From positions 29,204,066 through 29,268,065 of the forward strand of contig OY759215.1 in assembly GCA_963662175.1 (NCBI GenBank): 64,000 bases of DNA, given 5' to 3'. The DNA comes from Aradus depressus. Taxonomy: Eukaryota > Arthropoda > Insecta > Hemiptera > Aradidae. The notes under the pieces were generated by a model. It did not search any database and was not told the origin of the DNA. It saw only the letters and a program-made list of their open reading frames with translations. The position numbers and the translations under genes were made by a program. Of the stretch, positions 3,983 to 60,400 are shown piece by piece. Within the stretch, counting starts at the first letter, position 1. Each line of letters opens with the position of its first letter.

Positions 3983-4121
3983 ACATTATTTATATAATAA
4001 ACACGTATTCTTAGAAAAGAAAAGTTTTAATTTTGTGTACTTGAAAAAATAAAAAGTAAATAAAACAAACTTATTATTTTTTTTTTTGAAATATTGTCTA
4101 TTCCACTAAAGATATATATAC

Positions 4122-4168
4122 ATATATAACTACCGGTTTCGGCTTTATACCATCGTCAGGTCTAGTTA
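4122..4168 (-). ncRNA. Hammerhead-ribozyme-like motif, family D, minus copy
   Basis: Read on the minus strand: core CTGACGA (4159-4153), a GG...CC stem II with a large loop, GAAA (4140-4137), then a 6-nt self-complementary stem III (ACCGGT, 4137-4132) and A17 at 4131. Predicted cleavage is between 4131 and 4130. Stem I is short (about 3 pairs next to the core). Confidence 0.55.
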
Positions 4169-4179
4169 TGAACCTAGAC

Positions 4180-4226
4180 GATGGTAGACCTGACGATGGT
4201 ATAAAGCCGAAACCGGTAGTTATATA
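4180..4226 (+). ncRNA. Hammerhead-ribozyme-like motif, family D, plus copy
   Basis: Core CTGACGA 4190-4196, stem II and loop 4197-4208, GAAA 4209-4212, self-complementary ACCGGT 4212-4217, A17 at 4218. Predicted cleavage is 4218/4219. Stem I pairs 4219-4221 with 4187-4189. The loopless stem III suggests activity, if any, as a dimer. Confidence 0.55.
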
Positions 4227-4299
4227 TGTATATATATCTTTAGTGGAATAGACAATATTTCAAAAATAAGTTTGTTTTATTTATTTATTACAAGTTTCC

Positions 4300-4568
4300 A
4301 CAATATGTCCGCGTTTCTCAACTTAGAAGTTGAAAATAAAAAGTGTTTATTGTTAATATCTTACGTTTGTTAAACTTAACGTTTGAACACATATTTTATT
4401 TAAAACGAATTATTTTATTGCTAAATGAAAGATTTTCTATATTTATAGCTATAAATTCTTGAAGACAATAAAAACATTTAAATTTAAAATGTTTATTTTA
4501 GAGCAAACGTCTATTAGGGAAAGAAATTATTTTCTCATTGTTCATAAATAATAAAATAATTATTATAT
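4300..4568 (+). repeat. Left half of a family G repeat, split by the errantivirus
   Basis: From about 4430, short phrases such as aatgttta.tttagag and attgttca.aa.aataa match the upstream part of another family G copy at about 29380-29460, and the copy resumes at 12081. Nothing recognisable at 4300-4430. Confidence 0.5.
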
Positions 4569-4765
4569 AGTTAAGTGACACCTAACTACAAAAAGCATAG
4601 ACTCAGCATCAGCACTTTTAGAAACAATATAACGGCGTTCGACTGCCGCGCGCTCAGTCTATTGAGTTCCGTCTTGCTGTTCACAACACCTTTACTTTGT
4701 AATTTTTCTGTATTTTAATAAAAGTTATTTTTTAAAAACTACTTTGTTGAATTCAGAACTTAATT
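4569..4765 (+). repeat. 5' LTR of the errantivirus
   Basis: Starts AGTTAAGTGACACC and ends CTTAATT; the same 197 bp recur at 11884-12080. Contains a TATA-like AATATAA (4626-4632), an insect initiator TCAGT (4654-4658) and AATAAA (4717-4722). Confidence 0.95.
4626..4658 (+). promoter_or_regulatory. LTR core promoter: TATA-like box and initiator
   Basis: AATATAA at 4626-4632 lies about 28 bp upstream of TCAGT at 4654-4658. TCAGT matches the insect initiator, so transcription probably starts near A4656. The spacing fits a RNA polymerase II core promoter. Inferred from motif and spacing only. Confidence 0.6.
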
Positions 4766-4782
4766 GGCGCTGCGGACAGGAT
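4765..4782 (+). promoter_or_regulatory. Primer-binding site, Ser-tRNA type
   Basis: TGGCGCTGCGGACAGG starts at the LTR edge. It would pair with a tRNA 3' end reading ...CCGCAGCG-CCA, with discriminator G as in eukaryotic Ser tRNAs. The 17.6/297 group is known to use Ser tRNA. The exact tRNA was not checked. Confidence 0.7.
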
Positions 4783-4980
4783 CTCGCGAGTGATTTTAGT
4801 GGTGTTTCTCCATTGATCATTTGAATCTTAATTCTTCACGCGGGATTCGAACTTATTTCAGTAATTGTGATCTTAGTGACAGTGCTTTGGCCCATTGGTG
4901 GAAATTCATTATTTCCGGCGACCAAACAGAAGACGGACAACTCTACTTTAGACCCAAGGACCTCCACAAGGGTATCTGCG

Positions 4981-5000
4981 ATGTACATCATCCAACTCCT
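4981..5000 (+). CDS. env leader exon (coding) and overlapping 7-codon upstream ORF
   Basis: ATG 4981 is the first ATG anywhere in the leader, counting from the LTR start. In unspliced RNA it opens a 7-codon ORF that stops at TAA 5002-5004, inside the splice donor (GTAAGT at 5001-5006). In spliced RNA the donor 5000/5001 and acceptor 10282/10283 keep this ATG in frame with env, and the junction lies within a hydrophobic N-terminal segment suited to a signal peptide. Start codons in the leader exon fit the spliced env messages known for errantiviruses. Splicing is inferred from consensus sites and frame, not shown. Confidence 0.7.
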
Positions 5001-5006: not shown

Positions 5007-5270
5007 CCTTGCCTTATTTATCCTTAACTTTAGGTAATCATTTTGAACCAAATTTATCCATTTTTTTATAATCTTGAATAATTAAAAAAATAAATAAAAT
5101 AAAATAAAATAATAATAAAATAAATACTTAATAATAATAATATCTTTTAAATTTTAAATAATTCATAATTAGATAGATAAGTTTCTTAAATTGTATAGAA
5201 AAAAAAAAAACATTTCTTATTTTAATAGAGAAACTTAGGAAATCTTTAATCTTTATTTCTTTATTTGCAC

Positions 5271-6638
5271 ATGAATTCAGCACAAGTAGAACTAATTGCA
5301 GATAATACCCAGTTACTTGAACAAATTAGAAATAATTCAAATAGACCGCTTGTTCAACCTGCTAAATTTATTATTAATAAAAATCAAACTAATACAAATA
5401 TGTCTCCCCCAGTACTCGAACCAACACCTGTCGCCCCCACACAAACCGAGCTTCAGTTGCTAATCAATTCTCTACCTCAGTATTCACCCGGAGATAATTT
5501 ATCGATTTTTATTACGGAAGTAGAAAACTTGAATAAACATTTAGAAAACAGACTGACACCCGACTTACAGTACATAGTAAATTGCTCGATCAAATCAAAA
5601 ATAAAAGGTGAAGCTAGGGACTTTTTAAGTTACCTTGCTGCTGACAACTGGACCGAAATCAAGAAAACTTTGTTACAAAAATACGGAGATCAGAGATCGG
5701 AGGACGTACTTCTAACCAACTTGAAACAGACCGTACAACAACGAAACGAGACTTACATGGACTTTTACGCTAGACTCGTCAAAAATTATAACAATGTATT
5801 ACAAAATATAATGCTTAACGTAGAAGAGCCAAATTACTTAGCCTTTAAAAAATTTGAATATACCAAACTAGCAACAAAGACATTCCAAATAGGATTGTTA
5901 GAACCTTACCGGTCCTTCCTCAGTCATTTTGAGCTAAGCTCACTGGAGGGATGCATAAATAAATGCCAACTCCTTGACAATCGTCAAAGCGAATGGGACT
6001 ACACAGAATTCATTCGTAGGACCCAGGGAACTTCAAAGCCTCCGCCCCAACTTAAACCTATTCAGATTCATTCAGTACAACCGCCTGGATATCCAAACCT
6101 TTATGGATATAATCCTAGACCAAATCCCAACGTGCTAGGGTATCGTATGATGCCACCTATGCAACAACGGGCCATCCAACACCCACAATATAAGCAAGGT
6201 CAGCAAAACCTACTTAGACCTCCTCCACTTCCCCCCATACAAGGTCAACAACAGTTTACCCCAAGATTTCCTGTTAGACCAGCATCTGGAATGTACCAGA
6301 ATGCTAGACCAAAACCAACCCCTATGTCTATTCAATCCAGGGTAAACACTCAACAATTTAACCGTAATAGACCTTGGACTAACACTCCGCCCGTGCCAAT
6401 GGACGTAAATACATTGGAAACGGACCTCACCGATTATAATCCTTATTTTTATTATGATGATGGAAATTACACATACCAACCCTATGAAGAAGGAGACGTA
6501 GGTCAGAGCGAAATAGACTTAACCAACCCTCACTTGACCACCCCCCACATTGAGGAACCAGACGAACAAACCGAACAAATTGAACCAACTGAAAATGTAA
6601 ATTTTTGGGAACCAGCCTCAGAACTGCCGACCACGTAG
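5271..6638 (+). CDS. gag: Errantivirus Gag polyprotein
   Basis: 455 residues from ATG 5271 to the stop at 6636-6638. The only ATG upstream in the leader is the short one at 4981, so Gag is presumably reached by reinitiation or leaky scanning. Residues about 45-230 (QYSPGDNL..., ...LQKYGDQRSEDVLL...) match the helical capsid region of gypsy-type Gag. The C-terminal third is rich in Pro, Gln and Asn (about 255-380) and then acidic. No CCHC zinc knuckle is visible, as is usual for several insect errantiviruses. Gag forms the particle and packages RNA. It ends 34 nt beyond the -1 frameshift site, so most ribosomes should stop at 6638. Confidence 0.9.
   Translation: MNSAQVELIADNTQLLEQIRNNSNRPLVQPAKFIINKNQTNTNMSPPVLEPTPVAPTQTELQLLINSLPQYSPGDNLSIFITEVENLNKHLENRLTPDLQYIVNCSIKSKIKGEARDFLSYLAADNWTEIKKTLLQKYGDQRSEDVLLTNLKQTVQQRNETYMDFYARLVKNYNNVLQNIMLNVEEPNYLAFKKFEYTKLATKTFQIGLLEPYRSFLSHFELSSLEGCINKCQLLDNRQSEWDYTEFIRRTQGTSKPPPQLKPIQIHSVQPPGYPNLYGYNPRPNPNVLGYRMMPPMQQRAIQHPQYKQGQQNLLRPPPLPPIQGQQQFTPRFPVRPASGMYQNARPKPTPMSIQSRVNTQQFNRNRPWTNTPPVPMDVNTLETDLTDYNPYFYYDDGNYTYQPYEEGDVGQSEIDLTNPHLTTPHIEEPDEQTEQIEPTENVNFWEPASELPTT
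6599..6605 (+). promoter_or_regulatory. -1 ribosomal frameshift heptamer
   Basis: AAATTTT is read in the gag frame as A AAT TTT, the X XXY YYZ pattern of -1 slippery sites. Slipping back one base puts the next codon at 6605, the first codon of the pol frame. The pol frame is open only from 6593, after a TGA at 6590-6592, and has no nearby ATG, so Pol must come from frameshifting. I did not fold the downstream RNA for a stimulatory structure. Confidence 0.8.
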
Positions 6639-9600
6639 ACCTTAATTGCTTAAATTCCAAACCCAAATTACCTTTTCTATATTTACCTCAGACTAACTTA
6701 AAAATTTTAATCGATTCAGGAGCCTCAAACTCAGTCATTAATACACAACCTGCTTTTGAAAAATTCTCTCAATATCTGTTCAAAAAACCATTCAGCATTA
6801 CTGGATTGTTAAACAAGAAATCAGCTGATGACAACGTTAAAGCCCCTCTATTATCAGAACTTGGTATTCATGAATCAATCAATTTCCACGTAATTGACTG
6901 GCACAAACATTTCGACGCACTAATAGGTAGCGAAGATCTAGAAAGACTTGGAGCGATCATAGATTATAGAAATAACACACTCAAAATCGCGAATCAGGAA
7001 ATTCCATTCCTCCTAGGATATACTTCCCAGTCAATCAAACCTTGCAAAGTGTTTGTAAATAATTATGTCAGAATACCGGTGACACAAGAACAAGGTGATG
7101 TATGTCTCCCAGAGATAAAACTTACCAACGACATTACGATTCCCGAATCTTTAGTTACTATACGCAATGGCTTTTGTCTAGTACCTATAGATGTAAACAA
7201 TACAGAGATTTATTTTGACGAACGAATTCCTGTCACACCTATCTCAGTCACAGATATAGAATACCCACAGCCTTCTAAATCTTCCAAATTAAAAGTTTCT
7301 GAAGCAATTAGGACGTCACACTTGAATGGAGAAGAGAAACGAGCCATACTCAATATTTGTAGACAGTTCAAAGACACCTTTTATGACGATGAAGAGGGAT
7401 TACCTTTCTCCAATTCTGTCAAACACAAAATTAGGACAACAGACGAAGACCCAGTATACGTAAAATCTTTTAGACACCCATACCACATGATGACCGAGAT
7501 TCAGAGACAAATACAGAAACTTTTGGACAATAAAATCATTCGACCGTCAATATCGCCTTACAGTGCTCCCGTATGGATCGTACCGAAGAAAATGGACGCA
7601 TCCGGTGAACGAAAGTTTAGAATGGTGATAGACTACAGAAAGCTTAATGAGAAGACAATTGAAGATCGTTACCCCCTCCCGCGAATAGACGAAATTTTAG
7701 ATAACTTGGGTAAATGCCAATATATTAGCACTCTTGACCTAGCTCAAGGATTTCATGAGATAGAGATGGACCCCGGATCAATAGAAAAGACAGCTTTTAC
7801 AGTAAACAATGGACATTATGAATACCTCAGGATGCCATTTGGTCTCAAGAATGCACCAAGCACATTCCAAAGGGTGATGGATAATGTTTTACGCGAGTAC
7901 TTATACAAATTCTGTTTCGTTTACATGGACGATATTGTAATTTTCAGTAAATCGCTAGATGAACATTGTCAACATTTGAGGAATGTATTTCAAAAATTAC
8001 GAACATTTAATCTCAGAGTCCAACTAGACAAATCCGAATTCTTGAGAAAAGAAGTTCAGTTTTTAGGTCATGTCGTGACCCCGGATGGTATTAAACCAAA
8101 CCCAACGAAAATAGAAGCTATAGAAAAATATCCCATACCGCGAACTACGTCAGCAATAAAATCATTTCTAGGACTAATAGGATATTACAGACGTTTTATT
8201 TCCAATTTTGCCAAAATAGTAGCACCAATGAGCAAATGCCTCAAGAAAGGATCAAAACTGGACCCGAATGATCCAGACTACGTACAAGCCTTCCAACAAT
8301 GTAAAGAATTATTAACAAATTCACCTATTTTAGCTTACCCAGACCTGTCAAAACCATTTCTTCTTACAACCGATGCATCTAATGTTGCAATAGGAAGTGT
8401 TCTATCTCAGAATAATAGACCTATTGGATTTTACTCCAGAGTCCTCAACAGTGCAGAAAAAAATTACTCCACAATTGAAAAAGAACTACTGGCTATCATA
8501 GACTCTACAAAACATTTCCGACCATACCTATACGGTAAGAGATTTACTATAGAAACTGATCATAAACCTTTAGTTTGGCTGTACAAAATAAAAGAACCAA
8601 ACTCTCGTCTTATCAGATGGAAAATAAAACTGGAAGAGTTTGACTTTGAGATCCAGTACAAGAAAGGGAAAGAAAACTTTGTAGCAGACGCCCTATCAAG
8701 AATTGAAATTAATAACTTTGATGACGAAGAAGCCGACGATTCAATGTCAATCCAGGTATGTTTGGACGAAGGGGACGCCAATCAGCTGCGCAGAGAAGCT
8801 CAGGCACTCTCAAACAATGATCTGGATGAAATACTAAATCAACCCCCAGATAACAGTGAACAGTATCAAGAAATAATACAAGATCTTGAAAAAACATTAG
8901 ACGAACAAGACAATGACACTGATCTGGAAACCGTGCACTCAACTGATGGAGACACTGGAAAAACTGTCCCTATCAGCGAAAGACCACTAAATGTTTTCAC
9001 CAACCGAATTATATTTAGCATCGGAGAAACTCGTAAAAGTAGATTAACTAGACCTTTCAATAGGATGACTCACTTCGCAACTATCAGAAGAAGCGCTATG
9101 GAAGAGGACCTCTCCATTCTCCTCAAACAAATCATAAGACCAGACCAAAATTTCGGTATATATTTTAAGGACGAAATAATTCATAAACCGTTCCTTGACC
9201 TTGTATACAAGATATTTAATAATTCAATAAAAATATTTATCTGTACGAAATTCTGTCAAGATGTAACCGATGAAGACAGACAAAATAACATTGTAATGGA
9301 ATATCACGACCAAAACCACAACGGTATAAACGAAACCCTGAACCAATTAAAGGAAAAATATTTCTGGCCAAAAATGAAGGATACCATCAGTAGTGTCATC
9401 AATATCTGTGATCTATGTCAACGATCGAAGTATGAAAGAAGACCGTACGACCTAAAACTTTCAGGACCAATGACGGCTCAAAGACCATTTGAGGTCATCC
9501 ATATTGACACCTTCTCTTTCGATGGCTCAAAATTTCTAACAATAATCGATTTATTTTCTCGCTACGCTCAGGCATACCTTATCAAAGATGGAACTAGTCT

Positions 9601-10330
9601 GACAATTCTAAATAAACTCCGACATTACTTTTCACATCATAATCTACCTAAGAAAATAGTTTGCGACGAAGGGAGAGAGTTCAAAAACAAGACTATGATA
9701 GAATTCTGCAAACTAAACAAGGTAGAACTCCACTTCACAACAGTCAACAATCCCAATTCAAACTCGCCCATAGAAAGACTACACTCGACAGTGCTAGAAA
9801 AATTAAGAATTATAAAGTTAAAGAACCCACGTGATCTTCCATCCAATCACATGATAACTGCCATTCTTATATACAATCAAGCAATACATTCATCAACTGG
9901 ATTCTCCCCATTCTATTTATTGTATGGACCATACGATCGACCCATAGATTTCGACCTAGGACTCACGACTTTCGAACAATATAACGAAAAACGTAAACAA
10001 GAATTAATGCCCTTCTATGATAAAGTCCATAATAAAGCCAAAGAAAAAGCCCAGCAGGTACTAAATAAAAGAAATCAAAATAAAGAGAATAACCCGGACG
10101 TACAAGACCAAGAAATTTACATTGAAAGGAACAGACCTAGAAAAACTGACCCTCCATTTGAAAAAATAAAAGTCACAGGACAAACCAAAGGTAAAATTCA
10201 AGGAACTACTAAGAAAGACAGACCAACTACAGCCCACATAAGAAAGGCAAAAAGACTAAGGAAAAATGTTTCTTCTGTGCAGGTCGATCCTGATCCCGAC
10301 CAGCCTGGCCCTCCAAATAACGAAGCTTGA
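6605..10330 (+). CDS. pol: Errantivirus Pol (protease, reverse transcriptase, RNase H, integrase)
   Basis: 1241 residues after the frameshift; numbering starts at 6605. Protease has the aspartate loop DSGA (37-40). Reverse transcriptase follows, with VIDYRKLN, LPFG-like MPFGLKNAPSTFQR and catalytic YMDD (440-443). RNase H has DAS (D590), ELL (E627) and TDHKP (D652), then the tether FVADALSRI. Integrase has an HHCC zinc finger (H901, H905, C935, C938) and a DD35E triad (D968, D1021, E1057). The tail is basic with no chromodomain. All catalytic residues are present and there is no internal stop, so the enzyme looks functional. The last 48 nt overlap the env acceptor exon. Confidence 0.95.
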   Translation: MGTSLRTADHVDLNCLNSKPKLPFLYLPQTNLKILIDSGASNSVINTQPAFEKFSQYLFKKPFSITGLLNKKSADDNVKAPLLSELGIHESINFHVIDWHKHFDALIGSEDLERLGAIIDYRNNTLKIANQEIPFLLGYTSQSIKPCKVFVNNYVRIPVTQEQGDVCLPEIKLTNDITIPESLVTIRNGFCLVPIDVNNTEIYFDERIPVTPISVTDIEYPQPSKSSKLKVSEAIRTSHLNGEEKRAILNICRQFKDTFYDDEEGLPFSNSVKHKIRTTDEDPVYVKSFRHPYHMMTEIQRQIQKLLDNKIIRPSISPYSAPVWIVPKKMDASGERKFRMVIDYRKLNEKTIEDRYPLPRIDEILDNLGKCQYISTLDLAQGFHEIEMDPGSIEKTAFTVNNGHYEYLRMPFGLKNAPSTFQRVMDNVLREYLYKFCFVYMDDIVIFSKSLDEHCQHLRNVFQKLRTFNLRVQLDKSEFLRKEVQFLGHVVTPDGIKPNPTKIEAIEKYPIPRTTSAIKSFLGLIGYYRRFISNFAKIVAPMSKCLKKGSKLDPNDPDYVQAFQQCKELLTNSPILAYPDLSKPFLLTTDASNVAIGSVLSQNNRPIGFYSRVLNSAEKNYSTIEKELLAIIDSTKHFRPYLYGKRFTIETDHKPLVWLYKIKEPNSRLIRWKIKLEEFDFEIQYKKGKENFVADALSRIEINNFDDEEADDSMSIQVCLDEGDANQLRREAQALSNNDLDEILNQPPDNSEQYQEIIQDLEKTLDEQDNDTDLETVHSTDGDTGKTVPISERPLNVFTNRIIFSIGETRKSRLTRPFNRMTHFATIRRSAMEEDLSILLKQIIRPDQNFGIYFKDEIIHKPFLDLVYKIFNNSIKIFICTKFCQDVTDEDRQNNIVMEYHDQNHNGINETLNQLKEKYFWPKMKDTISSVINICDLCQRSKYERRPYDLKLSGPMTAQRPFEVIHIDTFSFDGSKFLTIIDLFSRYAQAYLIKDGTSLTILNKLRHYFSHHNLPKKIVCDEGREFKNKTMIEFCKLNKVELHFTTVNNPNSNSPIERLHSTVLEKLRIIKLKNPRDLPSNHMITAILIYNQAIHSSTGFSPFYLLYGPYDRPIDFDLGLTTFEQYNEKRKQELMPFYDKVHNKAKEKAQQVLNKRNQNKENNPDVQDQEIYIERNRPRKTDPPFEKIKVTGQTKGKIQGTTKKDRPTTAHIRKAKRLRKNVSSVQVDPDPDQPGPPNNEA
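10257..10282 (+). promoter_or_regulatory. Splice acceptor for env mRNA
   Basis: A branch-like ACTAAG, then pyrimidine-rich tttcttctgtgcag ending in AG 10281-10282, lies inside the end of pol. It joins in phase to the donor at 5000/5001 and gives the env frame. Confidence 0.65.
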
Positions 10331-11900
10331 AACAAACGGATACTTTATAGAACCACTGTCAAATGTCAGCTTACTAGATCATTACCACAACTTTCTATTT
10401 CATGTTAATGTCTCTAAATACGAAACAAGCTATAATACACTCATATTGAACTCTAATACATTAAAAACAAATGTAGTCAACAATACTATAATGAGTAGAA
10501 TTAGTAGCCAATTAAAGGGAACTATTTATAAGATAAGGGAAATTTTAGATAAGTTAAGTAGTAATAGGCGTGAAAAACGTGGGATAGTAAACGGACTCGG
10601 AAGTATAATTAAATTTGTAGCTGGAAACCCGGACAATGACGATTTAAATACTATAAATAATAATGTCGATGCTCTCTTTAAAAATCAAAATAATGAAATT
10701 AATAAGATCTCTCAGTTTACATCTTTCGCTAATCATGTTAGTAAAAGAATTGAAGACGAAACACAAATATTCAACCAAAACATTAGAGATACAAAAGTCT
10801 TTTTAGAGAAGTTGAAATCTTTTGAAGATAGTCAAATCATTTTACAAAATGAGGTTTATCAAGCCGAACGTATACTGAACTCCCTACTTGTCCTTGAACG
10901 GACCATTAGCCTAGCATTCAACAATATACCTAATCTAGAAATAATTAGCACAAATGAATTAATACAGATACAAAACTATCTTAAGAAAATGTATAGGGAT
11001 AATCAATTACTCCCTTTAGACAAAAATCATCTATTTAAATTGTTAAACGCTTCTAAATTATACATATTTGGTATAAATCAAATGATTACCTTCCTTCTCA
11101 AAATACCAATCCTAAAACCTTTCCAAGCAACCTATTCCAAAATTTACCCTGTACCTAATAGTGAAGAAATTATCATTCTACCACCTAAAAGATTTCTCGT
11201 CATCTTGGAGGACACTGAACTCTGGTCTGATGAAGAATGCAAGGTAAATAATGGAATCACCCTGTGTACTCAGCAGCCTAGTCAAGAACCCTGCACCACC
11301 ACTAGCCTCGACCGCTGCAACTCTGCCAAAGTCAAAAACTCGTATAAAATAGTGACTGCACTATCTAATAAACAAATATTAGTTATGTTTCACCAACCAA
11401 ATGAAATCATCGAAGACTGCGAAGGCATACCCCGCACAAAGACTATACAAGGAGCCGCTCTACTAAGCTCATCCTGCCGACTTATAATCGGAACATTGGT
11501 ATTTACATCAGCCGAACCATCCTTCGAGATCACACCACCTAAACTAAATCTAGTGCATTTGGAAAGCAGTCATGAAATCAACCTACAACTTCGTCACCTA
11601 AGCCCGTCAACTGATCTTCATCAAGAAGCTGTGGAACTGGCCCAACAACCCATCCTACTGTCACCAATAGCACAATTTTCTTATTTAATCTTAACCATAA
11701 CATTATTAATTTGTATGTTACTTGTATTAGTCGTGTTATTCAGATACCGACATAGACTACATGATCTGTTCTGCAAACCTAGAACAATCATCACGGTGCG
11801 CCCCGCAGACGACCAAGAAGCTGGACCCCCCATGGTGAGCTGCCAAAATTCGAACGGGCCGTTCGAAAAACTTAGGAGGGAAGAGTTAAGTGACACCTAA
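10283..11900 (+). CDS. env: Errantivirus envelope glycoprotein (baculovirus-F-like)
   Basis: Main exon of env; an unspliced ATG in the same frame also exists at 10266 (544 residues, numbering used here). A short hydrophobic N-terminus suits a signal peptide. A furin site REKR (102-105) is followed by a Gly-rich hydrophobic segment (GIVNGLGSIIKFVAGN), the cleaved fusion-peptide layout shared by baculovirus F proteins and insect errantivirus Env. A Cys-rich ectodomain follows (about 325-385), then a transmembrane helix (about 471-496) and a basic cytoplasmic tail. No internal stop. Env mediates membrane fusion in this family and makes cell-to-cell transfer possible. The stop at 11898-11900 lies 17 nt inside the 3' LTR, so the tail is LTR-encoded. 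Confidence 0.92.
11872..11883 (+). promoter_or_regulatory. Polypurine tract
   Basis: The purine run AGGAGGGAAG directly abuts the 3' LTR at 11884 and would prime plus-strand DNA. It lies inside the env coding sequence. Confidence 0.8.
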
Positions 11901-12080: not shown

Positions 12081-12420
12081 ATATAAAAGTCGGGTTTCAT
12101 ATACAAACACATTATTTCATACTTAGCTTTAATTTTGATTTTTTTGGTTGAGTTGCTCTATAAGGTCTGTCGAATCTACTCTTTGTTTAAAATTGTCATC
12201 ATTATTTTTTATTATTTATACAATAATTTATTTAATTTATATTGGTTTATTTTTTATTGCTATTTTTCTGCTATTATTACATATTGTTTTCTTTCTTCTC
12301 TATATTTTTTACAAAGTGACATGAGGAATGGACGTAAGAACGTCCCGAAATATCGTCGTGAAAAAGACAATTCTCTGAGAATTATAAAAAAATATTTTTC
12401 ATAATGTAAATTAAATTGAA
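12081..12420 (+). repeat. Right half of the family G repeat
   Basis: Starts with the ATAT duplication and follows gtttcatatacaaacacattatttcatac, closely matching the copy at about 29489-29520. Carries a hammerhead-like motif at 12316-12359 and the downstream phrase attaaattgaaaa seen again near 29812. Confidence 0.7.
12316..12359 (+). ncRNA. Hammerhead-ribozyme-like motif, family G, core point-mutated
   Basis: Core ATGAGGA 12321-12327 (first core base C changed to A), a 6-bp stem II (GGACGT 12330-12335 with ACGTCC 12340-12345) capped by AAGA, GAAA 12347-12350, self-complementary ATAT 12350-12353 and C17 at 12354. Stem I pairs 12355-12359 with 12316-12320 (5 pairs including two wobbles). The altered C3 should inactivate it. 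Confidence 0.55.
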
Positions 12421-24715: not shown

Positions 24716-24848
24716 TTCGGCTATTTGAGTACCTTCCTCATCATCTGAATTATACCTTGATGATGCACAGAACACTAATTGTGCAACTGTCGTTGACTGA
24801 TTTTTTTTAAATATTGGCTATTTCACAAGGTATATAAAATATATGGGA

Positions 24849-24882
24849 CTACTTTCGGTATTGCTACCATCTTTAGCAACGA
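24849..24882 (-). ncRNA. Hammerhead-like motif, family A, core mutated
   Basis: Minus strand core CTAAAGA (24876-24870; G5 changed to A) and GAAA (24856-24853). Stem II sequence is intact. Predicted inactive. Confidence 0.45.
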
Positions 24883-24905
24883 CTTAACAGATTGTTCCAT
24901 TTGTT

Positions 24906-24943
24906 GTGGCTGAAGATGGTAGCAATACCGAAAGTACTCCCAT
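24906..24943 (+). ncRNA. Hammerhead-like ribozyme, family A
   Basis: Core CTGAAGA 24910-24916, stem II GGTA/TACC with loop GCAA (24918-24929), GAAA 24930-24933, self-complementary AGTACT 24933-24938, C17 at 24939. Predicted cleavage is 24939/24940. Stem I pairs 24940-24943 with 24906-24909. Confidence 0.6.
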
Positions 24944-25035
24944 TTATGTATATATTTTATATATCTTGAGAAATAGACAATATTTTTAAAACTTTCGTTT
25001 TTCTTTATATTTTTTACTAAGTGTTTCACAATATC

Positions 25036-28725: not shown

Positions 28726-28870
28726 TTTTTTTTTTTCATTTCATCATGGAATCAGAAAACCAATAAAAAACTAATATGAAGATGGCTGATGTAGTGAGAA
28801 GTGATTATTTCACAGGATGTCAAATATAAGATAGTCTGACCTCTCACAGATTTTTATTGGTAGTAATAGC

Positions 28871-28904
28871 TAGCCGGCTTTCGAGGTTTCCCTCATCATC
28901 AGGC
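28871..28904 (-). ncRNA. Hammerhead-like ribozyme, family B, minus copy
   Basis: Minus strand core CTGATGA (28902-28896), stem II GAGG/CCTC with a GAAA tetraloop, GAAA (28882-28879), then an 8-nt self-complementary stem III (AGCCGGCT) and A17. Stem I is short (GC/GC). Confidence 0.55.
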
Positions 28905-28938
28905 AGTCTGATAAAAAATTAAAAAATTTTAACAAACT

Positions 28939-28975
28939 GCCTGATGATGAGGGAAACCTCGAAAGCCGGCTAGCT
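28939..28975 (+). ncRNA. Hammerhead-like ribozyme, family B, plus copy
   Basis: Core CTGATGA 28941-28947, stem II GAGG 28949-28952 with CCTC 28957-28960 around a GNRA-type GAAA loop, GAAA 28961-28964, AGCCGGCT 28964-28971, A17 28972. Predicted cleavage 28972/28973. Only two stem I pairs are obvious. Confidence 0.55.
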
Positions 28976-29039
28976 ATTACTATCAATAAAAATCTGTGAG
29001 AGGTCAGACTATCTTATATTTGACATCCTGTGAAATAAA

Positions 29040-32165: not shown

Positions 32166-32617
32166 TTATTGATACATTTATTACATGAGCAATTGTTGTG
32201 TTTTTGACCACCCTCAGTCCAATTTGGCTGAAAATCAATACGTGTTGCTCTTATGAAGTTGAGGAGACAAGTATCCTAAATTTTGCCTGCTCATGATTTT
32301 TATTTTGGAGATCAATCATTGTTTAAATAGGTCTTAATAGGAGAAAATACCTATGTGGAAAGAGATGAACCATTGCGTATGGTGAATTGAGCCGGTTGGA
32401 GGTCCAACCCGACTAGAAAAGTAATCAGGAATGCCTCATTTGGAACTGATGAAGTTTTCCTGACCAGGAATGCCTGTTGTGGAACTGACGAAGGTTTCCG
32501 AAGAAGAAAATAAATAAACCTTACATAATAATATACTTTTGATCTTTGTATGTGTTGAGGAAGCGTTGTTACATTAAATAAGGGTTCACACAGCACTTAA
32601 CTTCCTTCTTTTATTAT

Positions 32618-32651
32618 TCCTGACGTTTCGAGCGTTCGCTCATTCACAGGT
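32618..32651 (-). ncRNA. Degenerate hammerhead-like motif, family J
   Basis: Minus strand: stem II GAGC-GAAC-GCTC, GAAA (32629-32626), ACGT and C17, but the core reads CTGTGAA rather than CTGANGA. A possible decayed or variant core. Confidence 0.35.
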
Positions 32652-32715
32652 GTTATTTCTATATAAAAATTTTGTATATGGATAACTTACTTACTTAACG
32701 CAGCTCTACAACCCG

Positions 32716-33058
32716 CTAACGAGTCTTGGCTTCCTCGAGCAGCAATCGCCAGGAGTCTCTGTTTTGTGCGGCTCCCATCCAGTTCTGGATCCCGATGTTC
32801 CTGGCGTCGTTGGTCACACAGTCCGACCACCGCAGTCTCGGTCTTCCTACTCTCCGCCTTCCGTGCAGGACTTCCATCAGTAGCTTTCTTGGGATCATGT
32901 CTTCGCTCATCCTGATAATATGTCCGGCCCACCTTAGCCTGCCCAGTTTTATCACTTTAGTCACATCTGGCTCTTTGTACAGGTCGTACACCTCCTGGTT
33001 GCTCCTACGCCTCCATTCTCCTCCAACGTTCACCGGACCATAAATCTTCCGGATATAG
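32716..33058 (-). pseudogene. Non-LTR retrotransposon ORF2 C-terminal fragment
   Basis: An open minus-strand frame of about 114 codons with RKIYGPVNVGGEWRRRSN, LGRLRWAGHIIRM and GRRRVGRPRLRWSDCV, ending at TAG near 32716. This is the widely recognised C-terminal region downstream of the reverse transcriptase domain in RTE/CR1-type insect LINEs. No stop interrupts it, so it may be fairly young, but it lacks the catalytic reverse transcriptase. It lies exactly between the two ribozyme-bearing arms of family J. Confidence 0.8.
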
Positions 33059-33068
33059 GGATAACAGC

Positions 33069-33100
33069 TGTGAAAATGAGCGAACGCTCGAAACGTCAGG
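33069..33100 (+). ncRNA. Degenerate hammerhead-like motif, family J
   Basis: CTGTGAAAAT, then GAGC-GAAC-GCTC, GAAA 33090-33093, ACGT, C. Core altered as in the left arm, with extra A residues. Confidence 0.35.
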
Positions 33101-33140
33101 AATAATAAAAGAAATAAAAGAAGGAAGTTAAGTGCTTTGT

Positions 33141-33830
33141 AAACCCTTATTTAATAATAAACATTTCTACAAAATTAAAAAAAACTATATTTACATTTGT
33201 AATAATAATTATTTAAAAAGTTAATAATTTTTATTTAAAATCTGTTTGTCCTAGTCCAGGCTTCTCTGGAATTGTTTAGAAGAATGTAATAGTAAAAAAC
33301 TAAATATTTCGTCGGATCTGGAAATCTTATTTTGGTCCTAACGCGGTCCTAATCGGGAATGTCTGATGCTACTTAATATTTCAAAGGGTCTGGATATCCT
33401 ACTTTGATCCATACTCGGCCCCAGCTCCAAAAACCACATGGAACTTTATTACTCATTTGGTCATAATACTCTGGGCCTGACTTGTACTTGAAAAGGCATA
33501 GTTTTAGTGGCATGCCTTACAATCACCTCTACAGGACCTGATATATTGTAAGGCTTTGTCTGAGGTCATTTCCAGTCGGGAACCAACTAACCATTTGTAC
33601 TAAACTACTTGGTCTCGTAATGATAACGTTAGGGGGCTCCTCATTGTGAACCTCATTACCATATCTAGGGCAGACGGAGGTCCTTCTGCAGGGCTCATCT
33701 GCATTGGAGTTTGGACAAGGAGATACAAATGGGCAGTGTGTTGCCACTCTCCACCCTTGGAGAATATAACGTAGGTAGCGACTGTTGTCGACCATTTGCC
33801 TAAGATCTCGAGGAGATTATTTAGATTTGT
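33141..33830. other. Unclassified sequence
   Basis: Two overlapping minus-strand open frames (33529-33795, 33600-33923) show no recognised domain. No repeat ends seen. Confidence 0.3.
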
Positions 33831-34315: not shown

Positions 34316-34574
34316 CAAAACTATTCATTAAATTCAAATTCAAAACCCCAAACGGACGGTAACTACTCAATTTCCGCGAATTTGGCCGAAGAGAACGGGA
34401 TCAGCGGAGAAGGAGCTCGACTCAAAAACCCTAACAACTGCGATTTATTGACACAAACTTTAGTGAAAACTGACATTATTGCAGAGATATTGTGAAATAA
34501 TTCAAATGAACTTGAAAGAAATAAAACTTGTTTATTTATGATATTGTCTAATTTCACCAACTATATTTACAGGG

Positions 34575-34607
34575 GAGTACTTTCGGTATTTCTACCATCC
34601 TTCAGCC
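34575..34607 (-). ncRNA. Hammerhead-like motif, family A, core with extra base
   Basis: Minus strand core reads CTGAAGGA, one base too long, followed by GGTA-GAAA-TACC, GAAA and AGTACT. Confidence 0.4.
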
Positions 34608-34647
34608 AAAAGCATAGAGAGCATAGAGACTTATCTCTTATGCTTTT

Positions 34648-34682
34648 GGCTGAGGATGGTAGAAATACCGAAAGTACTCCTC
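34648..34682 (+). ncRNA. Hammerhead-like ribozyme, family A, tandem copy 1
   Basis: Core CTGAGGA 34650-34656, stem II GGTA/TACC capped by GAAA, GAAA 34670-34673, AGTACT 34673-34678, C17 34679. Stem I is weakened because the next unit follows directly. Confidence 0.55.
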
Positions 34683-34729
34683 CTTCAGCCAAAAGCATAG
34701 AGAGCATAGAGACTTATCTCTTATGCTTT

Positions 34730-34765
34730 TGGCTGAGGATGGTAGAAATACCGAAAGTACTCCCA
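34730..34765 (+). ncRNA. Hammerhead-like ribozyme, family A, tandem copy 2
   Basis: Core CTGAGGA 34733-34739, same stem II, GAAA 34753-34756, AGTACT 34756-34761, C17 34762. Stem I pairs 34763-34765 with 34730-34732. Confidence 0.6.
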
Positions 34766-34840
34766 TGTAAATATAGTTGGTGAAATTAGACAATATCATA
34801 AATAAACAAGTTTTATTTCTTTCAAGTACAAACTTTAGTG

Positions 34841-44624: not shown

Positions 44625-44800
44625 AAACAAACTTGTAGAATTTCTGCCAAGCTTTCGGCACTGAGTGTGCCTTCTTCAAGGCCTGTATTGACGTATATAC
44701 GTTATTAATAGTAGACCTATACTAGATTTGAGTAAAAGATATGACATTAAAACTAAAACAAACTGTTTTTTTTTATCGACCTCAAGCTTGATTTCTCTTT
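44625..44800 (-). repeat. Family E repeat
   Basis: Matches about 60240-60380 on the opposite strand: aaacttgtagaattt.tgcc, ggcctgtattgac, ctagatttgagtaaaagatatga. Confidence 0.65.
44650..44683 (-). ncRNA. Hammerhead-like motif, family E
   Basis: Minus strand: core TTGAAGA (44679-44673; C3 altered), stem II GGCAC/GTGCC, GAAA (44656-44653), AGCT, T17. Stem I pairs GGC with GCC. Confidence 0.45.
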
Positions 44801-46790: not shown

Positions 46791-47525
46791 AATGTGTAAT
46801 CATCTTCCCCCCTTGTAAAAAAATGTCGTGCTGTAGTGATCTCACGAAACTGAGAAGAAAATGGGAACGGACATCATGCGAGCTAAGTTACGGAGGGAAA
46901 AGATTTCTCCGTAGAGTGATCGTTGCTGGCTCTAGCTCAGACGGCGTCTTTACATCATTGTCGTGTTACATTACTGTTACCAACAATAGGGTTGTATTTA
47001 AACTAATGTGAAAATTCATTTCGAATTATTGTCTCACATGTTTAAATTATACGTGAGCTCTAATATAATTTAATATTTTCAAAATTATTCCGTATTTGTT
47101 AATAGTGGTTATATTGTAATTACACGACTATCGGAATTATTACCAGAAAATTAATTGTAACAAATGAATTATAAATCTTGAAAATTTGTTTGTACGTTTG
47201 TTCAATTTACGCGAAAACGGTAAGTTCTATCGAAAAAATCTTCCCAAAACAGTTTCTTATTATTAAATTTCCAGTTTAGATTTGAGATAGAACTGATAGA
47301 AACTGATATGAAACTTGAGTCCATATATTATGGTAGCCATAGAGAAGGCGCTATTCGGAACGGCATATTTATATTTAAAATTTATTTGTTATTAATCCCC
47401 CCCCATCGCCCCTATTTCCCCCTCCCCTCCTTTATTACTTCAAGTATAATTTTTTTTAAATTAATTAATTATGCTTAATAATTGTTCATTTTGTTTCAGG
47501 TGAGTGGTCGGATTCTTATTAGAAT
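46791..47525. other. No gene recognised
   Basis: 47190-47300 resembles 37540-37660. Pyrimidine-rich ccccccatcgcccctatttc near 47400. Confidence 0.3.
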
Positions 47526-47621
47526 AATATGAAGATGGCTGATGTAGTGAGAAGTGATTATTTCGCAGGATGTCAAAAATAAGGTAGTCTGACCTCTCAC
47601 AGATTTTTTATTTAAGTAAGC

Positions 47622-47655
47622 TAGCCGGCTTTCGAGGTTTCCCTCATCATCAGGC
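47622..47655 (-). ncRNA. Hammerhead-like ribozyme, family B, minus copy
   Basis: Minus strand core CTGATGA (47653-47647), GAGG-GAAA-CCTC stem II, GAAA (47633-47630), AGCCGGCT, A17. Confidence 0.55.
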
Positions 47656-47876
47656 AGTCTGATAAAAATTTGAATAAACTAAATAATAGAAATAAATAAA
47701 TAAAAATCTACAACAAACATTAACAATTTAAAATATCATGGATATAGTTGTGACTCAGATGGTGGACAGGAATAACTCGTCTGTCCCCATCCATGATATT
47801 TTAAATTGTTAATGTTTGTTGTAGATTTTTATTTATTTTTTTTTATTATTTAGTTTATTCAAATTTTTATCAGACT

Positions 47877-47913
47877 GCCTGATGATGAGGGAAACCTCGA
47901 AAGCCGGCTAGCT
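47877..47913 (+). ncRNA. Hammerhead-like ribozyme, family B, plus copy
   Basis: Core CTGATGA 47879-47885, same stem II, GAAA 47899-47902, AGCCGGCT 47902-47909, A17 47910. Confidence 0.55.
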
Positions 47914-48114
47914 TACTTAAATAAAAAATCTGTGAGAGGTCAGACTACCTTATTTTTGACATCCTGCGAAAGAGATTCTTATGAGAAATAAACTTTCGCT
48001 GTAAGTAATGCCTAAATTTATTGTTTTAATATTATAACCATTAATTTAACCAAATTTTGCCAAAGGACCTCTACAAAAATATATTCTCGATCTACCATTT
48101 CATTGAAACTTCAT

Positions 48115-50128: not shown

Positions 50129-50130
50129 CG

Positions 50131-51487: not shown

Positions 51488-51599
51488 TAATAATAATAAT
51501 ATTTAACATTTTTGCAGAGATATTGTGAAATACTTGATAAAAATAAAGAAAACGTATGTTCTTTAAAAAATATTGGCTATTTCACAGATAATATATAAT

Positions 51600-51638
51600 A
51601 TGGGAGTACTTTCGGTATTGCTACCATCTTCAGCCACA
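51600..51638 (-). ncRNA. Hammerhead-like ribozyme, family A, minus copy
   Basis: Minus strand core CTGAAGA (51633-51627), GGTA-GCAA-TACC, GAAA (51613-51610), AGTACT (51610-51605), C17 (51604). Stem I CCCA-type pairs with TGTGG. Confidence 0.6.
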
Positions 51639-52072
51639 ACTTAACAAATACTAAATTCAAGTTCAACTAGGTAGTTTACAATCCAAACGGTAGGTAGGTA
51701 TCCTTTTTCAGCCCCTACGGGGGTTTCCTATCCCTTCTGTAGAGTTAATATTTGAAATATGTAAAAAAATAAAAAATGACATTTCGTCCCAAATTGGGAT
51801 CTTAAAAATAAAAAAATGTAAATAGTATGTGTTGATTAAATGCATATATGAATTAACAATTGTTATCTTTAATTCATTTCATATACGCATTTAATCAACA
51901 CATAATATTTAAAATTTGTTATTTTTATTTTTTTATACAATAATAATTTTTTATAATATATTTTATTATACAGAAGGGATAGTAAACCCCCGCAGGGGCT
52001 GAAAAAGGATACCTACCTACCGTTTGGATTGTAAACTACCTAGTTGAACTTCAATTTAGTATTTGTTAAGTC

Positions 52073-52110
52073 GTGGCTGAAGATGGTAGCAATACCGAAA
52101 GTACTCCCAT
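52073..52110 (+). ncRNA. Hammerhead-like ribozyme, family A, plus copy
   Basis: Core CTGAAGA 52077-52083, GGTA-GCAA-TACC, GAAA 52097-52100, AGTACT 52100-52105, C17 52106. Stem I pairs 52107-52110 with 52073-52076 (3 pairs plus one wobble). Confidence 0.6.
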
Positions 52111-52190
52111 ATATTTGTGAAGTAGACAATATATTTAACTTAATTCTTCTTTATTTTTTAATAACTGTTTCACAATATCTCTGCACAAAA

Positions 52191-56320: not shown

Positions 56321-56321
56321 G

Positions 56322-56510: not shown

Positions 56511-56553
56511 ACTACGACTAGTTTCGTCAGTAAACTGACATCTTCAGATGGAA
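56511..56553 (-). ncRNA. Hammerhead-like ribozyme, family C, minus copy
   Basis: Minus strand core CTGAAGA (56547-56541), 5-bp stem II GTCAG/CTGAC, GAAA (56525-56522), ACTAGT (56522-56517), C17 at 56516. Stem I is weak here. Confidence 0.6.
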
Positions 56554-57007: not shown

Positions 57008-57054
57008 TTTCACCACCTGAAGATGGCAAATTGTCGAAACTAGTTGTGGTAAAA
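57008..57054 (+). ncRNA. Hammerhead ribozyme candidate, best fold in the window (family C)
   Basis: Core CTGAAGA 57017-57023. Stem II GGCA 57025-57028 with TGTC 57032-57035 (one wobble). GAAA 57036-57039. Self-complementary ACTAGT 57039-57044 as stem III, T17 at 57045, cleavage predicted 57045/57046. Stem I: 57046-57050 pairs with 57012-57016 (5 Watson-Crick pairs), then one mismatch and three more A-T pairs (57052-57054 with 57008-57010). All core bases match the hammerhead consensus except for one extra U after A9. Confidence 0.7.
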
Positions 57055-57139
57055 ATAAAATATATAGTTGGATTGATACATCTGTATTACTTATTTAACA
57101 AGTAAGTCCACTATATTCGCCTACCACCAAGAAATATGG

Positions 57140-58340
57140 CTCATTGTAGCCTGTTTGAAGAGAGGCAAGGTTAGCTGAGGTGAAGTGACAGCCTATATAC
57201 CCAGTTGATTTAGTCCCTTTGAGCCAGTCCTCTGGCCTATCTGACACAATCTGCCTCCCAGATTGGTTCTATGGCCAATCCTTGTCCCGGATTTATGCCC
57301 TACAGTGACAAATGAGCCGGAATGATCCGCATTTGCGTCAGGTCGGTGCATTTTAGTGCAACTCGGCTGCATTTCTCTCTCCGTGTCTGCTCATCCGGTA
57401 CAATTGCCATTTGAAGCCACCTCACTCCACCGCAATATGCTTCTATCTCTCTAAATCCCTCCCACAACTAGTTAATTAAATTTCATTTTCCAGTCCATTT
57501 TATGTCTCTATCTATGAAACTTAATATATTTTCTGAGTTTCAGCATAGAAAATATCTCTATCAAAGGAACAAAGGAATCTACAATTTTGGGGCGCCGGAG
57601 ACACCCTCCAGAATTTTACTCATTCGTTGAGGAAACAATTTTGGATGAGGTTCGGTGGGGTAGAGCAAGAAGAATATAAATATTCAATCAATCAATTCTT
57701 TATTAAAAAAATACCTGGTAGAAGCACTGAGGAGCCCGCAACCTCACAAGACCCTTTTCAACATTACAAACAACCAAAACCTCAATAATGTCATACTATA
57801 CATAGTAAGCACGAGTTAAATGTATGGAACTTGAAAAGTTTTTTAAAAAAATTTTATTTAAAAAATAATGGCCTGCAAAAATCATCTACAACTATATACT
57901 ACTACAGGGGTGGGGGGTATATACTCCCGAGGGCACAGCCCGGAGTTTCCATGGTTAGCCCTGCAGACTTTTTGTTATTAATTTGGGAGCCTCGGATCCT
58001 TAGAAGCCCCCCCTGAGGTAACCACTGACTGTAATACTTAAGCTGACTTTGTATTTTTAGTGCGCATGTAAAATCAGCTTCAAGAGTATAAAGTATAACA
58101 TAAATAAAGATTTTGAGCGAGGAAATGATGGAATTCATATATATATATATTTAAATAAATGTAATATGACTTGTTTTGTACATGTACATTTAAGTAACAG
58201 CTGATTGCTGATTTAGGAATCAGACGCACGGGAAATTTGAAGATCCTATTGGTAACTTGCAACCAATCCATTTTTAATAAAAACTACTTTTTAGTTTATT
58301 TAATTTTTAATATGGTTTTTGCTCTGGCCAGGGGGAGCAC
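57140..58340. other. No gene recognised
   Basis: The phrase ggggtggggggtatatac near 57905 and other words are unclassified. Several short open frames look random. Confidence 0.3.
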
Positions 58341-58359
58341 GTGGCTACGCCCCTGGGTG

Positions 58360-58570
58360 TCGACCTTATAGAATTCTGGATACACATATATAATTTAGTA
58401 TTGATGATACATTTATTCTATCAGGTTATCGTGTTCACACTGACATATATCTATTTTTGGATTTTCATTTTTGGAATCAGGGGATCAAAAAACATAAAAT
58501 TCCGGGTCCAATATCGAATTTCTGACCGATTACATAACTTCTCTCATACTTCGTGTTGCTGGAGAAGTCA
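58360..58570 (-). repeat. R-family repeat fragment
   Basis: ttattctatcaggttatcgtgttcac, then ctgaccgattacataacttctc, reverse R start. Confidence 0.55.
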
Positions 58571-59520
58571 AAATTGTCCAGCTATTAAATAAACTACCAC
58601 TATTAACAAGAAATGGACGGATAAAACAGAGTTGAAAGAAAAATTATATAAGTGTCATTACTTAGGGTCAATTCCATATGTAGCGTTTCTTTTTTTTTTA
58701 TGAAACGTTTTTAAGGGCGATTATTTTAAACGCACCGGCAGGTACAATTGGAATAACGTAAAGTTAACGGTGAGGAAAATGACTTCTGATATAATATATG
58801 GGATGTATTTATTATTGAAGTGAATATTCGAAGAATGTAAACGTTTTCTTTTTCTTATTTATATGTTTCAATCAAAAAAGAACGGTGCTTGGAAAGTGAT
58901 CTCGTGGTCTGTTTTGAATTATGGCTTGGAATGAAATATAGAAGTTTCAGTTATGCAACCAGATTGTCTGCATCTTCATAACGGCAGTCAGTAACTGTGT
59001 TGATATTTACAGATACATGTCAAATCAAACTACTTCAGTAGTTGTTGTAATTGTTCAGTAATGTAGAGTACCGTAATTTCAAGTTTTTGTGATCTTCTAC
59101 AACCAAAAAATGATGACAAATATATCCAATTGTATGTTTCCTACCAAAACTGTTCCTTGTTAAGTTTCCAATAGCTAATGTGTTCTCAAATTTCAGATGG
59201 GATCAGATGAATGTTATAAAAAAATAAATAGGTACTGGTCTACGCATTCATTTTCAGTACATCGATTGGTAAGGGTACACGATGGGATATTAAGGTATGA
59301 AATAGCTGGTCTCTGTGGAGGGCAGTTAGTGGACAGGCTAACAAAACATGATTGGAGTCAGCTGGAGTAAGTCCGTCGCAGCTACAAAAAGGATGATCTA
59401 AAATTTAGATTTTTTGAAGGTGGAAAGGTAATCGGTTGTGGTTGAATCTAAGGCGGCAATTGGCTTATTATTAGTAAATTTTAGAAAAAAAAAATTTACA
59501 AAAAATAAATAAAATATTGT
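58571..59520. other. No gene recognised
   Basis: AT-rich. 59140-59210 resembles 37590-37640 (gttccttgttaagtttcca). Unclassified. Confidence 0.3.
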
Positions 59521-59714
59521 GATATGGCCATTACAGGACTTTCCTATACCAACCATGCTTACAGATTACTCTCTTTCCCCCTTTTCAAAATTATTTCATT
59601 ACAAAATCTAGTGTCAATCATAAAATAACATAATCTCAAAAAACAACCGAATAGAATTTTCACTATTTAAACCAAAACACAATAAACTAATATGTGCGTA
59701 ACCTTAACCATATT

Positions 59715-59995
59715 AGTTAGTTATTATGACTCATGCCCGAGCTTTAACTACGAGGTCATATCGCCTAGTACCAGAGCGCTCTTTCGTCACTCTGGTGGAC
59801 GTGAGCCCGACTCTACTGTGGGAGTCCTAAATTTACCTAGGGTAGGGGTCTTTAACGAGTACCTGACATCGTACAGGCTCGGGACCATCGCTTAACGTCC
59901 CATCCGAAAGACGGCGTGCTTAAGTTTATTTTACCTCCCAGATAAAATAAACTAAGGGCCTCGGTCGGGTTTCGAACCCACGTTCTTGAGCTTTG
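59715..59995 (-). repeat. tRNA-derived SINE, A-box end missing
   Basis: Tail ttattatgactcatgcccg through B box gggtttcgaaccca in reverse; ends at the anticodon-stem region. Confidence 0.8.
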
Positions 59996-59999
59996 TTGT

Positions 60000-60400
60000 G
60001 TTCATCACGTGATTAAAATTTTATTATTATCATTAATAATTATTTACAATGGATAATTATCCTTTTAATAATCCACTAGTTGCTTTGTTTTAAATTTTAT
60101 TATAATTATTTTAAAACTTCTGCTCGTCCAGGATGTTGCCTTTTTTGTTTAGATATCATATTAATTATTTGTGTTTTTAAATATCTTTGTATGTGTTTGT
60201 ATTTATTTTGATATAATATTTTAGTTTGTTTGGGTGTAAATAATTTAGTTATAGTTTTAATGGTCATATCTTTTACTCAAATCTAGCATACATGAACAAT
60301 ATATGATATCAATACAGGCCCTGAAGAAGTTACATTCAGTGGCGAAAACTTAGCATAAATTCCACAAGTTTGTTATCATCGACCATAAGCCTCATCTCTC
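60000..60400 (+). repeat. Family E repeat
   Basis: 60225-60385 matches the 44.6-44.8 kb copy in the opposite orientation. Upstream AT-rich part not assigned. Confidence 0.55.
60316..60353 (+). ncRNA. Hammerhead-like motif, family E
   Basis: Core CTGAAGA 60321-60327 intact, stem II GTTAC/GTGGC (two wobbles), GAAA 60344-60347, but stem III reads AACT rather than the self-complementary AGCT of the sister copy. Partly decayed. Confidence 0.45.

Follow-up and report, generated by a model that had tools for sequence, protein, structure and literature searches.

The 64,000-nucleotide stretch of the Aradus depressus genome analysed here (contig OY759215.1, positions 29,204,066 to 29,268,065, or G000:C2:29204066-29268065; hereafter the window) raises the question of why one region should carry so many motifs resembling the hammerhead ribozyme, in so many sequence types. 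The host genome comprises 697.7 Mb in 74 contigs. An initial annotation of the window had listed about two dozen such motifs and considered their diversity striking. We conclude that the hammerheads very probably lie in the pseudo-long-terminal-repeat (pseudo-LTR or pLTR) or leader of several lineages of Penelope-like elements (PLEs), i.e. elements encoding a reverse transcriptase (RT) and GIY-YIG, and that each inverted pair of motifs represents one insertion, probably generated by two-strand reverse transcription. The initial annotation had not remarked that most copies are the paired arms of inverted insertions.

Hammerhead motifs in the window

A descriptor comprising CTGANGA, a stem II of at least 4 bp (offset 0-2) and GAAA, with no palindrome required, matched the window 13 times, against a mean of 0.7 (maximum 3) in 60 dinucleotide shuffles. 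Shuffled sequence therefore does not give similar counts, and the motifs are real. Two of the 13 matches, 32446 and 60321, lack the stem III palindrome. When a palindromic stem III was required and stem II relaxed to at least 3 bp, 4159 and 4190 (each with a 3-bp stem II) were gained and 32446 and 60321 lost, giving 17 candidates, 13 of them with an intact core. These 13 copies together with 60321 make 14 intact cores with a paired stem II, spanning positions 4131 to 60347, one fewer than the fifteen originally claimed. Permitting up to two core mismatches raised the count to 21, several of these being chance matches, so that "about two dozen" holds only if degenerate copies are included. Two further plain matches to the core expression, at 32485 and 40300, were set aside as chance; the latter (CTGAAGATCGCGGGTTCGAAA, minus strand) falls in an apparent B box of a tRNA-type short interspersed element (SINE), and the string recurs among the listed genome matches and inflates genome-wide core counts.

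Six stem II/stem III types are clear (GGTA/AGTACT, GGT-GCC/ACCGGT, GAGG/AGCCGGCT, GGCA/ACTAGT, GTCAG/ACTAGT and GGCAC/AGCT), and three are degenerate (GGACGT at 12330, GAGC at 32649 and 33070, and GACAC at 61663). In all six clear types CTGANGA is followed by one additional nucleotide ahead of stem II, an A in the GGCAC type and a T in the others, and in each the final A of GAAA begins a palindrome of 4-8 nt (AGTACT, ACCGGT, AGCCGGCT, ACTAGT or AGCT). The components of a minimal type I hammerhead are all present, namely the CUGANGA and GAAA core, stems I to III (stem I of 2-5 bp) and H at the cleavage site, and the short palindromic stem III is that expected of the dimer-cleaving PLE hammerhead variant. 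As the initial annotation had observed, stem II varies yet stays paired: it reaches at least 3 bp in 28 of 50 unique cores, compared with 11.1 (maximum 21) over 5000 re-dealings of the 3' halves, although the sample is somewhat favourable, 41 cores having come from a genome pattern list and nine having been added as known hammerheads. At the sequence level, the fixed core, the changing but paired stem II, the palindromic stem III and the PLE context support the reading as hammerhead-type RNA, and we regard the motifs as minimal type I hammerheads with putative catalytic activity.

The pattern CTGANGAT-N8-14-GAAA occurs 48,810 times in the 697.7-Mb genome, against 1,962 for the reversed pattern. 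By eye, about three quarters of 100 listed places look like hammerheads or mutated ones, the remainder including a SINE-like sequence and another that belongs to a large repeat; because about a quarter of these places are not hammerhead-like, we restrict ourselves to estimating that the genome holds tens of thousands of putative hammerheads. Exact patterns for individual types number 8,272 (GGTA), 1,609 (GAGG), 1,167 (ACTAGT) and 107 (AGCT type). With 14 matches (one of them the SINE) versus a genome average of 4.5 per 64 kb, the window is, by these pattern counts, about three times denser than the genome.

The motifs are carried by Penelope-like elements

Longer copies outside the window place four of its hammerhead types next to RT/GIY-YIG coding sequence (loci in the host genome are given L numbers): GGTA-GAAA (L059 and L039/L040), GGTA-GCAA (L029), ACCGGT (L080) and GAGG (L081). 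The one locus examined as an intact direct pLTR-ORF-pLTR tandem (ORF, open reading frame), L059, has a 2941-bp unit, with three hammerheads at that spacing and an 824-amino-acid open frame after each of the first two. In L039 and L040, coding sequence for RT (with YVDD) and GIY-YIG lies between or beside the hammerhead arms. Pfam places RVT_1 in the L059 frame at 58 bits, above cut-off, and GIY-YIG at 21.4 bits, just under the 22.6 cut-off; in L029 GIY-YIG is above cut-off. Among the 120 relatives of the L059 frame listed out of 324, identity is 33-47%, and most of those naming an organism are from insects; over 349-405 amino acids, L029, L080 and L081 are 77%, 56% and 35% identical to L059, respectively. 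RT and GIY-YIG in a single ORF, as expected of a PLE, are found at L059, L029, L080 and L081. Judged by sequence, the carriers of these four types are PLEs, which the initial annotation had rightly named as a known home of hammerheads. The six clear and three degenerate types bear out the diversity it described, but the source is an ordinary one, because several PLE lineages, each with its own hammerhead, populate a PLE-rich genome.

At L059 (369-413), an ATG at the end of the hammerhead core (CTGANG-ATG) opens a 13-codon frame ahead of the 824-amino-acid frame; the core ATG was considered as the ORF start at this locus and dropped, as it opens those 13 codons only.

Inverted pairs as single insertions

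Most intact copies in the window sit in foldback arms, with the right-arm hammerhead on the plus strand and the left-arm hammerhead on the minus strand. We analysed 33 such pairs of the GGTA and GAGG types, of which 20 were closely spaced pairs chosen among listed matches and the remainder came from the window and 11 earlier loci, seeking direct repeats outside the arms and using mismatched flanks of different pairs (1056 combinations) as the control. Outer direct repeats of at least 11 bp flank 25 of the 33 pairs, compared with 43 of the 1056 mismatched combinations. In 23 of these 25, one arm ends 56-72 nt past the hammerhead and the other 95-116 nt past it; the other two, L064 and L078, lack this one-tail pattern; one repeat falls in a G run and the other, as judged, in a common repeat. 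L027, L044 and the window pair at 47653 have repeats of 8-9 bp and the same one-tail pattern, so that one short arm and one arm with a 34-48 nt tail are seen in 26 of 33 pairs. The long, tailed ends match sequence at the beginning of the L059 frame, and the target duplications vary from 8 to 15 bp. Inverted pLTRs, a short target duplication of variable length and a tail at one end (26/33) are features expected of PLE insertions.

Orientation was counted over the places listed for three families (86, 100 and 100). All 65 opposite-strand neighbours less than 1 kb apart are -/+, i.e. with 3' ends outward (one further neighbour is ++); within 5 kb the counts are 68 -/+ and 2 +/-. Among a set of PLE protein matches, neighbours within 6 kb are 26 -/+, 0 +/-, 2 ++ and 2 --. 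The foldback unit is best understood as a single insertion composed of two pseudo-LTR arms, 3' ends outward, between target-site duplications.

The hammerhead features of the window are as follows.

4058..4332: inverted PLE insertion, GGT-GCC/ACCGGT; hammerheads 4159-4131 (minus) and 4190-4218 (plus); AT-rich, hence weak, 12-bp direct repeat at the ends; the same type flanks RT/GIY-YIG in L080.
12323..12350 (plus): degenerate hammerhead-like motif; stem II GGACGT/ACGTCC, core ATGAGGA.
24819..24985 (ends approximate): foldback unit, GGTA-GCAA/AGTACT; intact hammerhead 24910-24939 (plus); left-arm core CTAAAGA, 24876-24853 (minus).
28774..29033: inverted PLE insertion, GAGG/AGCCGGCT; hammerheads 28902-28871 (minus) and 28941-28972 (plus); 12-bp duplication; arms end 99 and 63 nt past the hammerhead; type tied to PLE coding sequence in L081.
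32573..33155: inverted arms, each with a degenerate hammerhead-like motif, 32649-32626 (minus) and 33070-33093 (plus); stem II GAGC/GCTC.
34465..34827: inverted PLE insertion, GGTA-GAAA/AGTACT; hammerheads 34650-34679 and 34733-34762 (plus), left-arm core disrupted; 83-bp tandem duplication; duplication ACAAACTTTAGTG and left-arm tail judged by eye, the tail matching the L059 ORF start.
44649..44679 (minus): hammerhead-like motif, GGCAC/AGCT; core TTGAAGA, one mismatch.
47520..47973: inverted PLE insertion, GAGG/AGCCGGCT; hammerheads 47653-47622 (minus) and 47879-47910 (plus); 9-bp duplication; arms end 104 and 65 nt past the hammerhead.
51598..52112: inverted unit, GGTA-GCAA/AGTACT; hammerheads 51633-51604 (minus) and 52077-52106 (plus); tail-like sequence on both arms; two direct-repeat searches picked different short repeats.
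56516..56547 (minus): hammerhead, GTCAG/ACTAGT; probably the left arm paired with 57017.
57017..57045 (plus): hammerhead, GGCA/ACTAGT; stem I 5 bp; probably the right arm of one old pair with 56516 as the left arm, for which a search found no target duplication.
60321..60347 (plus): hammerhead-like, GGCAC/AGCT family; core intact, stem III palindrome lost.
61640..61663 (minus): degenerate hammerhead-like motif resembling the GACGC type of L040.

Elsewhere, eight hammerhead pairs at G000:C1:135341-689170 (L009-L024) share a common right flank and lie 65-135 kb apart, a large repeated unit holding one PLE insertion.

Were the inserted templates cleaved?

The endpoints of inserted copies bear on whether the ribozyme had cut the RNA from which they were made. 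The following counts are of exact matches in the GGTA-GAAA family, and inform only on RNAs that became insertions. The leader is present from base 1.3 in 4,657 copies, from base 1.1, where a cleaved RNA would begin, in 4,553 and from 4 nt before the site in 4,394. Loss around the cleavage site is 1.1 and 0.9% per nucleotide, and 3.5% over the 4 nt before it, which is background level without a step, and at most 3.5% of GGTA-GAAA copies can end there. Further upstream, 3,396 copies extend as far as 22 nt before the core and 973 continue for another 4 nt, a loss of 71%, part of which possibly reflects subtype variation; inner junctions at L009, L027, L060, L063, L066 and L070 stop at this 22-nt position as well. 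In this family, the 22-nt point probably represents the RNA 5' end. The lack of a step at the cleavage site, together with the 71% drop seen 22 nt before the core, suggests that in this commonest family the inserted RNA templates were uncut by their own ribozyme.

These observations bear on the possibility that the hammerhead fold is kept as an RNA structure, i.e. for dimer linkage or as a protein-binding site, and that self-cleavage has no part in making new copies. The small fraction of copies that can end at the cleavage site favours it, as do in vitro data for an Anolis PLE, in which hammerhead-dead RNA was inserted as well as active RNA and the hammerhead cuts only with the PLE protein present (PMC11167929). 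We nevertheless consider this explanation unlikely, if the strongest of the alternatives: all of the catalytic core, and not just stem pairing, is conserved from type to type, cleavage by the Anolis ribozyme does occur when protein is added (PMC11167929), and cleavage of RNAs that never insert would go unseen in the copies.

A proposed mechanism and its alternatives

In the mechanism we propose, RNA of the GGTA-GAAA element would start some 22 nt before the ribozyme core. Reverse transcription would begin at internal sites close to the ORF start, once from each nicked target strand. One complementary DNA (cDNA) would have begun at the near start site and the other at the far ("tail") site, and the two cDNAs would then be joined at their 5' sides. 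The sequences themselves show the motifs, the coding link of four types, the target duplications, the orientation, the one-tail pattern and, in one family, uncleaved templates; both-strand priming, the RNA 5' end, dimer folding and any catalysis are the parts of this account that we infer. A variant in which two RTs run in train on one RNA was rejected: it predicts that the untailed arm always extends further 5', whereas by eye the untailed arm is the longer in seven pairs (L027, L037, L063, L066, L069, L073 and window 47653) and the tailed arm in three (L072, L076 and L077).

Several points weigh against our account. No PLE coding sequence was found within the window beyond the tail match, and the coding link covers the GGTA-GAAA, GGTA-GCAA, ACCGGT and GAGG types; exact copies of the AGCT type are seldom paired (1 among 100 listed), though a blastn comparison of L047 with the window suggests inverted arms for that type too. 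Seven of the 33 pairs (L061, L064, L065, L067, L068, L078 and window 51633) do not clearly show the one-tail pattern, window 51633 differing from the other six in having tail-like sequence on both arms. As regards the ribozyme, an extra nucleotide separates CUGANGA from stem II, the GAGG and GTCAG copies tried have a stem I of just 2 bp, and an imposed dimeric hammerhead was more stable than two monomers in five of nine sequences, worse in four and never the minimum-energy dimer; a whole-unit inverted transcript would moreover bury the ribozyme in a long hairpin. Finally, the Rfam hammerhead covariance models, a scan that the initial annotation had advised, gave no match in the window at gathering scores or at E<=10. 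The Rfam matches obtained at E<=10 were mostly to microRNA models, the best of which fit inverted repeats, and the miss probably reflects stem III having no loop and stem II being preceded by an additional nucleotide.

A second alternative is self-priming, in which both arms would be copied by fold-back from a single template, possibly an antisense one, a route put forward for rotifer Penelope elements (PMC3846280). Paired arms often match perfectly across 92 nt, and in 24 of 27 pairs they share a subtype (shuffled mean 14.9, maximum 23), as self-priming would predict. It sits poorly with one arm ending 34-48 nt further out and with arms that stop at different inner points; moreover, L042 and L069, each with a single tail and with target duplications of 12 bp and 14 bp, respectively, have arms of different subtypes. 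We judge self-priming to be somewhat less probable again than a purely structural role for the fold; the mixed arms of L042 and L069 could have come from two RNAs or from template switching.

A stem III of this palindromic kind points to a ribozyme that would work as a dimer of two RNAs. Such a dimeric hammerhead would link two RNAs near their 5' ends, and that PLEs make use of this is conjecture. We give a low probability, slightly below that of self-priming, to the idea that the palindromic hammerhead serves chiefly for RNA dimer linkage, keeping a pair of PLE RNAs together close to their 5' ends, with each nicked target strand primed on one of them. If true, it would explain the head-to-head arrangement, the one tailed and one untailed end, the uncleaved RNA and the mixed-subtype arms of L042 and L069, and cleavage would become a side reaction stripping the template of its cap or eliminating it.

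Metazoan retrozymes, i.e. short tandem type I hammerhead repeats spreading via circular RNA, deserve mention since some local direct tandem arrays hold hammerheads (34598-34763, period 83 bp; G000:C1:11428418-11428942, 70 bp, eight listed places; G000:C4:25916479-25916689, 59 bp, four listed places). Most copies examined lie in dispersed inverted pairs linked to PLEs, and periods of 59-83 bp contrast with the 150-450 bp repeats described for retrozymes (PMC7229834), so that this origin seems very improbable; the small arrays may be a route from PLE arms to satellite-like repeats. Foldback DNA transposons, or miniature inverted-repeat transposable elements, holding the motif by chance would account for perfect inverted repeats with target duplications, but are scarcely credible given that duplications of 8 to 15 bp are not of fixed length, that the two ends differ by a tail, that this tail is the start of a PLE frame, that longer copies hold RT and GIY-YIG, and that no transposase was seen, though no genome-wide transposase search was made.

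Other features of the window

On the plus strand, 5250-11900 contains three long overlapping frames resembling a Gypsy-type retroelement, with a weak gag match, pol (RT, RNase H and integrase) and a Gypsy env-like protein. An inverted repeat without a hammerhead, with 294-nt arms of 94% identity, lies at 2942-3235 and 3655-3948; both arms gave weak RAGATH-30 matches (E 0.75-0.91, far under gathering score).

Comparison with known systems

Small PLE hammerhead variants with a reduced palindromic stem III, many copies and cleavage as dimers were reportedly described by Lunse, Weinberg and Breaker in 2017. Compared by description only, the motifs reported here resemble those variants in their short palindromic stem III, PLE association and many copies, and differ in lying mostly in both arms of inverted insertions and perhaps in having one extra nucleotide before stem II.

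A close parallel is PAc, a Poseidon PLE of Anolis (Frangieh et al. 2024), whose hammerhead marks the boundary of pLTR and ORF and contributes its A9 as the first letter of an ATG; its RT has two internal start positions that define the tail, and both target strands are cut and extended (PMC11167929). Our elements agree in the junctional hammerhead, A9 within an ATG, the two start sites with a tail and, as we propose, both-strand extension. The PAc ORF starts at the core ATG, whereas in L059 that ATG opens only the 13-codon frame and the 824-amino-acid frame is separate; and in vitro PAc used the same start sites on both strands, whereas most resolved insertions here use one of each (PMC11167929).

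For the Penelope of Adineta vaga (Arkhipova et al. 2013), the paper describes inverted pLTRs, 8-10 bp duplications, an optional 31-bp tail on one pLTR, and head-to-head as the commonest arrangement (PMC3846280). The insertions described here share the inverted pLTRs, short duplications, tail on one pLTR and head-to-head order, but number in the thousands where the Adineta vaga copy number is given as very low (PMC3846280); a text search listed no occurrence of the word "hammerhead" in that paper. Metazoan retrozymes (Cervera and de la Pena 2020) likewise carry type I hammerheads within repeats, those of salamanders having a weak stem III and dimer activity, but are tandem, non-coding and expressed as circles, with no inverted-pair architecture described in the portion available (PMC7229834).

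PLE hammerheads, dimer cleavage, inverted pLTRs, tails and both-strand extension have thus already been published (PMC11167929, PMC3846280, PMC7229834, PMC7761336 and PMC10085705). Within a limited literature search, which is not proof of novelty, we found no paper joining PLE hammerheads with head-to-head units, or palindromic hammerheads with inverted-repeat elements. Three quantified points go further than these reports: the uncleaved templates, the one-tail pattern and the 3'-ends-out orientation. The role of PLE hammerheads is an open question, which thousands of near-identical insertions allow the copies themselves to address. Templates starting 22 nt before the core and left uncleaved, together with the use of one near and one far start site, would constrain models of PLE integration, and this near/far usage departs from what has been published in vitro, where the same sites served both strands.

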